DNA from: Tabrizicola flagellatus
GTDB lineage: Bacteria > Pseudomonadota > Alphaproteobacteria > Rhodobacterales > Rhodobacteraceae
NCBI RefSeq assembly: GCF_008271465.1
Contig: NZ_VMDU01000002.1
Location: 124,001 to 188,000, forward strand
Length of the DNA stretch: 64,000 nucleotides
Direction: 5' to 3'
Shown here: positions 6,905 to 49,891 of the stretch, piece after piece
Position numbering within the stretch: position 1 is the first letter of the stretch
Layout of the letters: every line of letters starts with the position of its first letter
Program-made: the position numbers and the translations under genes
The notes under the pieces: model-generated
Told to the model about the DNA's origin: nothing
The model's input: only the letters and a program-made list of their open reading frames with translations
The model's database searches: none

Positions 6905-6960
6905 CGCCCCCACCCCCTTCCCCTCCCCACGGAGGGGGAGGGGAGGCGCGGGGCGCGGCG
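6905..6960 (+). repeat. GC-rich palindromic intergenic repeat, family 2, copy 1
   Basis: A C-run arm and a G-run arm around CCCCACGGAGGGG, followed by the tail GGCGCGGGGCGCGGCG. A close copy lies at 22912-22970 with the same tail, and a diverged copy lies at 49132-49180 inside xdhC. This copy sits directly after the proC-like pseudogene, where its hairpin could also end transcription. Confidence 0.75.
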
Positions 6961-22866: not shown

Positions 22867-22911
22867 AATCAATGAGTTGGCTTTGGGCGTTCACCTGATG
22901 TCAACCGTGGT

Positions 22912-22970
22912 GCCACCCACCCTCTCCCTCCCCCACGGAGGGGGGAGGGAAGCGCGGGGCGCGGCGTGCG
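22912..22970 (+). repeat. GC-rich palindromic intergenic repeat, family 2, copy 2
   Basis: C-rich arm, CCCCCACGGAGGGGGG centre and the tail GCGCGGGGCGCGGCG, the same as in the copy at 6905-6960. It lies between the convergent moaE and P1 peptidase genes and ends about 15 bases before the peptidase stop. Confidence 0.75.
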
Positions 22971-46457: not shown

Positions 46458-48877
46458 GCATGGGCAAGCCCCTGCCGCACGACGCGGCTCCGCTGCATGT
46501 GACGGGTCAGGCGCGGTATGTCGATGACCTGCCCATCGCCAATGCGCTGCATCTGGCCTTCGGTCTGTCCACGGTCGCGCATGGCGAGATCACGGGGATG
46601 GACCTGTCGGCGGTGAAGTCGGCTCCTGGGGTCGTCGCCGTGCTGTCGGCGGCGGATTTCGACGACATGCCGGATTGCAGCCCTTCGGCGCATGACGAGC
46701 CGCTTCTGGCGGTGGGCAAGGTGCATTACGTCGGCCAGCCGGTGTTTCTGGTCATCGCAGAAAGCCATCTCGCGGCGCGGAAGGCGGCGCGGCTGGGCAA
46801 GATCAGCTATCGCGAGTTGCCGGCGCTTCTGACCGTGGATGACGCCCTGGCCGCGAACAGCCGGTTCGAGCAGGGGCCGGTCATCTGGGCCAAGGGGGAT
46901 GCGGCGCGGGCCATCGAGAAGGCCCCTCGGCTGGTCGAGGGGTCGTTCGAGGTCGGCGGGCAGGAGCATTTCTACCTTGAAGGCCAGGTCGCGGCGGCGG
47001 TGCCGCAGGAGGGGGGCGACATGGTCGTCCATTCCTCGACCCAGCATCCGACCGAGGTGCAGCACAAGGTGGCGCATGCGCTGCATCTGCCGATGAGTGC
47101 GGTGCGGGTGGAAGTTCGCCGGATGGGCGGCGGGTTCGGCGGCAAGGAATCGCAAGGCAACGCCCTGGCGATTGCCTGCGCGGTGGCGGCGCGCCTGACC
47201 GGGCGGCCGTGCCGGATGCGCTACGACCGGGATGACGACATGGTCATCACGGGCAAGCGGCACGACCTGCGAATTCTCTACCGGGCCGGAGTGGACGACG
47301 AGGGCCGCATCCTGGGGCTGGAATTCACGCATCTGTTCCGCTGCGGCTGGTCTCAGGACCTGAGCCTGCCGGTCGCGGACCGGGCGATGCTGCATGCGGA
47401 CAACTGCTATCACCTGCCCAATATCCGCATCGAGAGCCACCGGCTGCGGACCAATACCCAGAGCGCCACGGCCTATCGCGGGTTCGGCGGCCCGCAGGGG
47501 ATGGTGGGGATCGAGCGGGTCATGGATCATGTGGCCTTCGTCGTGGGACGCGAGCCGCTGGAGGTGCGCAAGGCCAACTTCTATCGCGGGATGGCGGCCC
47601 CCGGGGGCGCTTCGCCCCCCGGACCCCCCGAGGATATTTCCGGACAGATGAAAGCCGGAAGCGACGCGGTGGACCTGACCTCTCTTGGCGCGGCGGCCCG
47701 GGTCGGGTCGTATGATCCAGCGGCGTACGGCCGGGTGCAGACCACTCCCTATCACATGCCGGTTGAGGATTTCATCGGGCATGAGCTGGTGGCGGAGCTG
47801 GAGCGGACCTCGGATTACCGGGCGCGGAAGGCGGCGATCGCGGAGTGGAACGCGCGCAGCCCGGTGCTGAAGCGGGGGATCGCACTGACGCCGGTGAAGT
47901 TCGGGATCTCGTTCACCTTGACCTGGCTGAACCAGGCGGGGGCGCTGGTGCATGTCTACCAGGACGGGTCGATCGCGCTGAACCATGGCGGGACCGAGAT
48001 GGGACAGGGGCTGTTCCAGAAGGTCGCGCAGGTGACGGCGTCGGTCTTTGGCCTGGATGTGGGCATGGTGAAGATCACCGCGACGGATACCGGGAAGGTG
48101 CCGAATACGTCTGCGACGGCGGCCTCGTCGGGGAGCGACCTGAACGGGATGGCGGCGAAGGCGGCGGCGGAGACGATCCGCGGGCGGCTGGCGGAGTTCA
48201 TTGCCGAGAAGCATCAGGTGAAGCCGTCCTCTGTGCGGTTCGTGGACGGGACGGTGAAGGTCGCGGGCGAGGTCTATGACTGGGCGCGGGTGGTGGCCTG
48301 GGCCTATCAGGCGCGGGTCAGCCTGTCGTCCACTGGCTACTACGCGACGCCGAAGATCATCTGGGACCGGGTGAAGGGGACGGGGCGGCCCTTCTACTAC
48401 TTCGCCTACGGCGCGGCGGTGACCGAGGTGGTGATCGACCGGCTGACCGGAGAGAACCGGATCCTGCGGGCGGACCTATTGCATGACACGGGGACCTCGC
48501 TGAACCCGGCCCTGGATATCGGGCAGGTCGAGGGCGCCTATGTGCAGGGCGCGGGCTGGCTGACGACGGAGGAACTGGTCTGGGACGGGAAGGGGCGGCT
48601 TTCGACGCATGCGCCCAGCACCTACAAGATCCCGGCCTGTTCGGACCGGCCCCGGGATTTCCGGGTGGCCTTGTGGGGCAAGCCCAATCGCGAGGACTCG
48701 GTCGGCAAGTCGAAGGCGGTGGGCGAGCCGCCGTTCATGCTGGGGATCTCGGCGCTGATGGCGCTGTCGGATGCGGTGGCGGCCTGTGGGGACGGGTCGG
48801 TCTATCCCGCGCTGGATGCGCCGGCGACGGCAGAGCGGGTGCTGATGGCGGTGCGCCGCGTGGAGGGTCGCACATGA
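46454..48877 (+). CDS. xdhB: Xanthine dehydrogenase large subunit (Mo cofactor), with an in-frame repeat insertion
   Basis: 807 residues, against 777 recalled for R. capsulatus. It holds the Mo-pterin site that hydroxylates hypoxanthine and xanthine. Active-site residues: E232 (GGKESQGN), R310 (in PVADRAML) and E758 in VGEPPFML. The first two have the R. capsulatus numbers; the last is E730 there, a shift of 28. The extra residues begin at about residue 381 ([18 protein letters not shown]) and are encoded by a copy of dispersed repeat family 1. The segment just before [12 protein letters not shown] is a surface linker in homologues, so activity may be kept. Confidence 0.95.
47597..47656 (+). 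repeat. Dispersed repeat, family 1, copy B, inside the xdhB coding sequence
   Basis: CCCCCGGGGGCGCTTCGCCCCC hairpin-like core (GGGGGCG-CTT-CGCCCCC), GGACCCCCCGAGGATATTT, then GGACAGATGAAAG. It is the same element as the intergenic copies at 31971 and 54565 and shares its hairpin with 29571. It is read in the xdhB frame without a stop. Confidence 0.85.
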
Positions 48878-48896: not shown

Positions 48897-48923
48897 CCAG
48901 GAACTTTCGGCGAGAATTCCTGG
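48897..48923. repeat. Degenerate palindrome between xdhB and xdhC
   Basis: CCAGGAACTTTC and GAGAATTCCTGG match at 10 of 12 positions around a GGC centre. It looks like a decayed copy of the perfect palindrome at 12872-12895. It ends eight bases before the preferred xdhC ATG and may affect its translation. Confidence 0.5.
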
Positions 48924-48931
48924 GGGTGCGG

Positions 48932-49891
48932 ATGTTTGATCGGGACGCATTGGCGGCGGCCCTGGCAAGGCATGGCCGTGTCGTCCGGGTGGTGATCGCG
49001 GGCGTGGAGGGGTCGTCTCCGCGCGAGGTCGGGGCGTCGATGCTGGTATGGGCGGATGGGCAATCCGGGACGATCGGCGGCGGGGCGCTGGAGTATGAGG
49101 CGGCGGCGAAGGCGCGCGGTCTGCTGGCGGGGAGGCCCCCCACCCCCTCCCTCCTCCACGGTGGGGGGAGGGAGGCGCGTCTGGTCGAGCGGATTGCTCT
49201 GGGACCGAGCCTTGGCCAGTGCTGCGGCGGGGCGGTGGTGCTTTGGACCGAGCTGTTCGAGGCGCTGCCGGAGGCCGAGGCCGGTATCGTGGCGCGGGGC
49301 GCGGGCGAGATGCCGCTGGCGGTGAAGCGGGTGCTGGCGGCGGCGCGGGGACAGGGAGTGAAGCCGGCGCCGGGGCTGGTCTCGGGCTGGCTGGTGGAGC
49401 CGGTCGCGGAGGCGGAGCGGCAGGTCTGGGTCTGGGGCGCGGGGCATGTGGGCCGCGCGCTGGTGTCGGTCCTGGCCCCCTTGCCGGGGATCGCGGTGAC
49501 CTGGGTGGACGTGTCCCCGGAGCGGTTTCCGGACGTGGTGCCGGAGAGCGTGACGGTGGTGCCGAGCCGCGACCCGGCGCTGCTGGCGGATCATGCGCCC
49601 GTCGGCGCGGAGCATCTGGTGCTGACCTTTTCTCACGCGCTGGACCTGGAACTGTGCCACCGGCTGCTCAAGCGCGGCTTCCGGTCCTGCGGGCTGATCG
49701 GGTCGGCGACGAAATGGGGGCGCTTCCGGTCGCGGCTGGCGGCACTGGGGCATGAGGCGGCGCAGATCGGGCGGATCCGCTGCCCGATCGGGGACCCGGC
49801 CCTGGGCAAGCATCCGCAGGCGATCGCGGTGGGCGTGGTGGCGGAGCTTCTGCGCGCGCCGCAGGGGATGGCGAAGGAGAAGCGGGCATGA
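48932..49891 (+). CDS. xdhC: Xanthine dehydrogenase accessory protein, with a short repeat-derived insertion
   Basis: 319 residues. XdhC binds and sulfurates the Mo cofactor and delivers it to XdhB. Family blocks: GVEGSSPREVGASML, GTIGGGALEYEAA, LGPSLGQCCGGAVV with the conserved cysteines, and the Rossmann-like VWGAGHVGRALVSVL. Between LLAG and VERIALGP about 15 extra residues (RPPTPSLLHGGGREARL) are encoded by a copy of repeat family 2. ATG 48932 is preferred; GTG 48926 is also possible. The stop overlaps the ABC ATPase gene (ATGA). Confidence 0.92.
   Translation: MFDRDALAAALARHGRVVRVVIAGVEGSSPREVGASMLVWADGQSGTIGGGALEYEAAAKARGLLAGRPPTPSLLHGGGREARLVERIALGPSLGQCCGGAVVLWTELFEALPEAEAGIVARGAGEMPLAVKRVLAAARGQGVKPAPGLVSGWLVEPVAEAERQVWVWGAGHVGRALVSVLAPLPGIAVTWVDVSPERFPDVVPESVTVVPSRDPALLADHAPVGAEHLVLTFSHALDLELCHRLLKRGFRSCGLIGSATKWGRFRSRLAALGHEAAQIGRIRCPIGDPALGKHPQAIAVGVVAELLRAPQGMAKEKRA
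49132..49180 (+). repeat. GC-rich palindromic repeat, family 2, copy 3, inside the xdhC coding sequence
   Basis: CCCCCCACCCCCTCCCTCC, CACGGTGGGGGGAGGG and GAGGCGCG follow the order of the intergenic copies at 6905 and 22912; the GC-rich tail is lost or diverged after GGCGCG. It is translated in frame. Confidence 0.75.

Follow-up and report, generated by a model that had tools for sequence, protein, structure and literature searches.

REPINs, which are among the known systems closest to the element analysed here, are inverted doublets of REP sequences tied to RAYTs, with singlets seen as remnants (PMC3116915). REPs are also known in frame within genes, as described for different REPs near one recB site in two Xanthomonas species, and the same source describes the Rickettsia palindromic elements (RPEs) (PMC3733652). 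The insertion that we analyse here is itself a known kind of event, and in-frame palindromic repeats in bacterial genes have been described before. The unusual part is that one protein loop has undergone 8–11 changes of repeat content within a genus, with repeat DNA near the family consensus. Among the open-licence papers listed, we found none on this element in Tabrizicola or Rhodobacterales, and neither Rhodobacter nor Paracoccus occurs as a term in the available text of PMC12306157.

The window is a 64,000-nt stretch of the Tabrizicola flagellatus genome (G000; contig NZ_VMDU01000002.1, positions 124,001–188,000). Its xdhC gene (48926–49891, + strand) encodes a xanthine dehydrogenase accessory protein of 321 amino acids; the frame is uninterrupted and was identified as XdhC by TIGR02964 (261.8 bits, cut-off 161.6), PF02625 and PF13478. 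A palindromic repeat of the C-run/G-run type, similar to subtype A of its family, lies in frame within the gene at 49135–49179 (45 nt, + strand; read as ..RPPTPSLLHGGGREA..), inside a covariance-model match at 49132–49184 in window terms (60.0 bits). The first-pass annotation had placed such a palindrome at 49132–49180 and recognized it also at 6905–6960 and 22912–22970. Both further copies (6906–6960 and 22912–22966, + strand) align with the xdhC copy and lie outside any scored coding frame. A 36-nt element pattern, allowing up to three mismatches, matched the window twice (22921 and 49144), compared with no match in 100 dinucleotide shuffles.

In the protein, 17 residues, RPPTPSLLHGGGREARL, separate LLAG from VERIALGP, close to the about 15 added residues without a stop that had been noted there. 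The loop measures 21 residues versus 8 in the shortest sister loops, a net gain of 13 residues. This corresponds to 39 nt, compared with 44–45 nt for the element, and no clean empty-site footprint can be drawn. RPPTPSLLHGGGRE starts at residue 70, the QCCGG motif is at residue 98, and the insert lies 14 residues ahead of this motif. In Rhodobacter capsulatus, XdhC binds Mo-MPT and interacts with XdhB, and its Cys82 is conserved in almost all XdhC-like proteins (PMC2997495). This cysteine is probably one of the two in QCCGG. A weak AlphaFold2 model of XdhC, built from 19 sequences (mean pLDDT 64), places the insert in a low-confidence loop between a helix (53–69) and a strand (87–91), and this modelled position would fit a permissive loop, which is probably exposed. 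The open frame and conserved flanks speak for RPE-like translation, so that XdhC with the insert would be both made and working. The insert is probably tolerated because the element is stop-free in six frames and the loop accepts extra Pro/Gly-rich residues.

Using a covariance model built from 29 copies, we obtained at least 68 matches in the 3.6-Mb genome at E up to 0.1 and at least 62 at E up to 0.001; copy counts are lower bounds throughout, with 150 first-look candidates scored per genome. Counting two overlapping opposite-strand matches once gives at least 67 non-overlapping copies, which comprise subtypes A (..CCCCATCCCTCCCCC..) and B (..CCCCCATCCCCTCCCC..). Among these 67, 26 form 13 close doublets, all of them inverted and 11 in the +/− order of the XdhC pairs described below. 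All 29 aligned copies are free of stops in six frames over 44 nt, compared with 24% of 5000 random 44-mers from the window. The xdhC copy ranks 33rd of the at least 68 model matches and is therefore not specially fresh. A BLAST search of phage and plasmid records with 22905–22966 gave no match, although the low-complexity filter may mask a query of this kind.

Mapping the family and counting its coding copies, as the first-pass annotation had proposed, placed at least 11 of the 67 copies in frame inside 9 ORFs, as judged by a simple codon score for which six window genes served as the training set. Adding a borderline copy in a P-type ATPase ORF and the second member of the pair in the NAD(P)H-hydrate dehydratase ORF brings this to 13 copies in 10 ORFs. 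Besides XdhC, the in-frame hosts by Pfam are PhnI, an alpha/beta hydrolase, an AMP-binding enzyme, NAD(P)H-hydrate dehydratase, an RNA methyltransferase (RsmE), an amidase, CobN and HrpB, with the Pfam families covering the insert or adjoining it. In-frame insertion is thus seen in several genes, of which xdhC is one. The eight further ORFs are L156, L167, L178, L179, L035, L219, L223 and L225, and three of the ORFs hold pairs. Family DNA is also found outside genes, and the remaining 56 of the 67 copies were not scored in a coding frame, in keeping with REPs in general, which lie mostly outside genes.

The family resembles REPINs in its inverted doublets of short palindromes (13 of 13 close doublets here, and six xdhC genes), its less conserved spacer, its singlets beside doublets, its varying copy number among related genomes and the occurrence of homologous sites that lack only the doublet (PMC3116915, PMC8049555). 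It differs from them in lacking a RAYT match and a GTAG tag, and in the share of copies within coding frames. At the palindrome ends of the 29 aligned copies, GTAG occurs in none and CGTC in two. Y1_Tnp (PF01797), the sole Pfam model used for RAYTs, had no match in G000, and none of the 32 genus genomes gave a match over its cut-off; two fell below it, in G018 (3 family copies) and G030 (0 copies). On the strength of this one model, we rejected a RAYT as the mover, and we do not claim REPIN membership for the element, the organisation being alike with no Y1_Tnp match. This raises the question of how a REPIN-like family spreads without a RAYT. As in the intragenic GTAG/CGTC REPs described in PMC3733652, in-frame palindromes occur within genes as singles and dimers; unlike in that description, one slot is here followed over 30 genomes through empty, single, paired, swapped and remnant states, and neither tag marks the element. 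The putative translation of palindromic elements within ORFs of an alphaproteobacterium is shared with the Rickettsia RPEs (PMC3733652), and the repeat lies in frame within conserved genes (xdhC and eight further ORFs). The host and base composition differ from those of the RPEs, to which the element is likened by description and not by sequence.

We give a probability of about 0.7 to the reading that the xdhC insert is a copy of a REPIN-like element, in frame, in a permissive and recurrent slot of the XdhC loop. A dispersed REPIN-like palindrome of about 44 nt, with two subtypes and often present as an inverted pair, would have entered the loop in frame. The slot would then have been repeatedly filled, doubled, swapped or emptied within the genus, and filled mostly where the family is abundant. 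The loop looks like a tolerated recurring landing site, not an ancient protein sequence or an RNA switch.

Of the 32 same-genus (Tabrizicola-like) genomes, 30 were readable at the XdhC loop; named loci in this group are from Tabrizicola thermarum, T. aquatica, Rhodobacter calidifons and Rhodobacter sp. SY28-1. We left out G028, whose best match is 28% identical and was taken as no orthologue, and G011, where xdhC is a fragment with an in-frame TAG (G011:C131:7182-7565). Twelve of the 30 genes carry an A-type repeat, as one copy in G000, G003, G024, G026 and G031, one copy plus a spacer in G007, and an inverted pair in G002, G004, G006, G013, G015 and G021. Three (G008, G009 and G010) carry a variant subfamily, read as LTPxLSPGGER and a diverged form. 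The loop is empty in ten (G005, G012, G014, G018, G019, G020, G022, G025, G029 and G030), with 8 residues in all except G025 (11 residues), and intermediate, at 12–17 residues, in five (G001, G016, G017, G023 and G027). In G023, the C-run arm is kept and the hairpin is gone. The permissive region that the first-pass annotation had suggested is supported by this distribution, in which the loop is empty in 10 of 30 genes and filled in 15, scattered over the tree. As a comparison gene, rsmE matched in 30 genomes, of which 29 were covered at the site (all but L233, whose match is 36 nt shorter than that of G000), and holds the insert in 2 of the 29 genomes read (G000 and G003).

It is very improbable that XdhC owes the Pro/Gly-rich peptide to ancestry or to selection for function. 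All forward copies do use the same frame (PPTPSLPHGGGRE and variants), and the spacers keep lengths divisible by three, as a protein role would favour; yet conservation within the repeat extends to third codon positions, copies of this DNA also lie outside genes, and half of the genus lacks the peptide. Outside the genus, where the first-pass annotation had named a shared peptide as the finding that would overturn an insertion, neither repeat nor peptide appeared in any of the 39 XdhC genes read, among the matches listed. These came from 164 matching genomes, from which we took 40 genes: 20 were picked by eye as overly long and 20 for their high scores, and one of the 40 (L129) was unreadable. 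Four named outgroup loci, from Defluviimonas and Maritimibacter, lack the peptide as well. The outgroup loop has 9 residues, near the 8 common to many empty genes. A single loop of a maturation protein is found in single, paired, swapped, remnant and empty states across 30 related species with an empty outgroup, so that gain, loss and renewal of elements become measurable at one protein site.

The repeat is predicted to form a 12-bp hairpin with a 6-nt loop (49146–49175, + strand) in its minimum free energy structure, and selection for RNA hairpins within the transcript had been the other suggestion of the first-pass annotation. We consider it unlikely that selection maintains the hairpin in the xdh RNA, be it for stability, attenuation or translation control. 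Conservation of the repeat DNA does go further than the protein would require, one helix pair is altered on both sides in three xdhC sequences, and helix covariation is 0.138, which 1 of 500 shuffles reaches (0.114 in shuffles). However, the three double changes all belong to one subfamily, and sliding the helix by one still gives 0.129. The share of paired cells over 19 distinct xdhC copies (88.9%) is only slightly above that in shuffles (88.0%), 57 of 500 of which reach it. In stability, the fold does not exceed dinucleotide shuffles (energy z −0.62), a severe control for such C/G runs, and an Rfam search of 48900–49400 at E up to 1 gave no match. Moreover, 15 of the 30 sister genes do without the repeat, and the right arm of the G031 repeat is altered without compensation. 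Fold energy and pair counts thus lend little or nothing to RNA-helix selection, and this part of the first-pass annotation was not upheld.

To follow the history of the slot, we used a tree built from xdhB, xdhC and the downstream gene without the loop (34 rows, 15 of 31 inner branches starred; the downstream gene is missing in G013 and partial in G020). This tree requires 9 changes for the A-type copy and 11 for any repeat, and an xdhC-only tree requires 8 for any repeat. A single clade of all 15 repeat bearers was rejected (p-AU 1.3e-27). Two sets can be told apart among the pair spacers. Those of G002, G006, G013 and G021 (set I; 42 nt) share 23–29 identical positions (55–69%, z 2.9–6.9), and those of G004 and G015 (set II; 45 nt) share 26 (z 4.6); the G007 spacer is weakly like set II (z 2.0 and 1.0). 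Members of a set are distant on the tree although their spacers are homologous, which indicates that the pairs were inherited or exchanged, and not each freshly inserted. A mobile unit that includes the spacer was rejected, as the only match to a strict G013 spacer pattern in 32 genomes was the xdhC of G013 itself; the test is a weak one, for the homologous spacers in G002, G006 and G021 likewise escaped the pattern.

These spacers bear on a rather unlikely alternative, in which an inverted pair inserted once, early in the genus, or filled loops passed between species by allelic exchange, and losses and decay followed. Gene conversion from other genomic copies would then keep the repeats close to the consensus, and the site would have seen no repeated insertion. 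Spacer homology across distant lineages in both sets is what this history would leave, and G023 looks like a remnant without the hairpin. However, two unrelated spacer sets, both in distant lineages, would require at least two origins or added exchange, and many independent deletions would hardly restore empty loops of 8 residues, so near the 9 of the outgroup. A single clade of the four set-I pairs was rejected (2.7e-4), also with xdhC alone (0.0077); the latter argues against transfer of xdhC as a whole, whereas exchange of a short tract would still agree with it.

Compared with the spacers, the repeats themselves have changed little. Right-hand repeats are 87–100% identical, versus 44–69% at four-fold sites elsewhere in xdhC (15 comparisons, which are not independent; Fisher p 2e-3 to 1e-9). 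Next to drifting spacers and four-fold sites, this identity suggests that the repeats are renewed, by conversion or re-insertion, or are constrained as DNA. We infer that renewal probably draws on other copies through conversion, or else takes the form of re-insertion into the slot. In seven genomes, the xdhC copy ranks among the top five model matches: G002 (2nd of 46), G004 (4th of 61), G013 (2nd or 3rd of 26), G015 (5th of 49), G021 (4th of 29), G024 (3rd or 4th of 37) and G026 (1st of 7). In G003, G006, G007 and G031, it is not among the matches listed.

Genus genomes hold between 0 and 92 copies each at E up to 0.001 (lower bounds), and XdhC loop occupancy tends to follow genome-wide copy density. 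Computed without the xdhC copies, median density is 10.8 copies per Mb in the 12 genomes with an A-type copy versus 2.75 in the 15 without a repeat (p 9e-5; 4.5e-5 when the three variant genomes are counted as without a repeat). With kinship controlled by independent pairs, on average 5.5 of 7 pairs agree and none disagree (median p 0.031, range 0.031–0.125), at a cut of 20 copies that we chose ourselves. Exceptions are G026, filled with 7 copies in the genome, and G016 (37 copies) and G020 (27 copies), both without a repeat. G007 (2.6 Mb, 80% complete) is the densest of the genus, with 92 copies, and G030 has none.

We also tried the idea that the subfamily in the loop mirrors the stock of the genome, which holds for G009 (15 variant-subfamily matches) but not for G010 (1, its own) or G008 (0). 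Pattern matches to a related subfamily, CCCCTCACCCCxxCCCTCTCCCC, number 10–15 in G009, G020 and G028 and 0–4 in the other 29 genus genomes. Tentatively, and at somewhat less than even odds, we propose that the XdhC loop is a preferred and persistent slot for a RAYT-less element. Its content would be rewritten towards the consensus, also between subfamilies, by conversion from other copies or by replacement insertion, while the spacer drifts. If so, a single protein loop would mirror the condition of a population of selfish sequences within the genome.

The neighbouring gene had been noted to hold a different repeat, and xdhB indeed carries an unrelated one (families D4 and D19) in frame at 47603–47654 (+ strand). 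The corresponding xdhB loop is itself variable, which also fits a permissive region. Between NFYR and TTPY (window 47590–47700), this loop ranges from 12 to 69 residues among complete genus loops, and the Defluviimonas xdhB loops have 20 and 51 residues.
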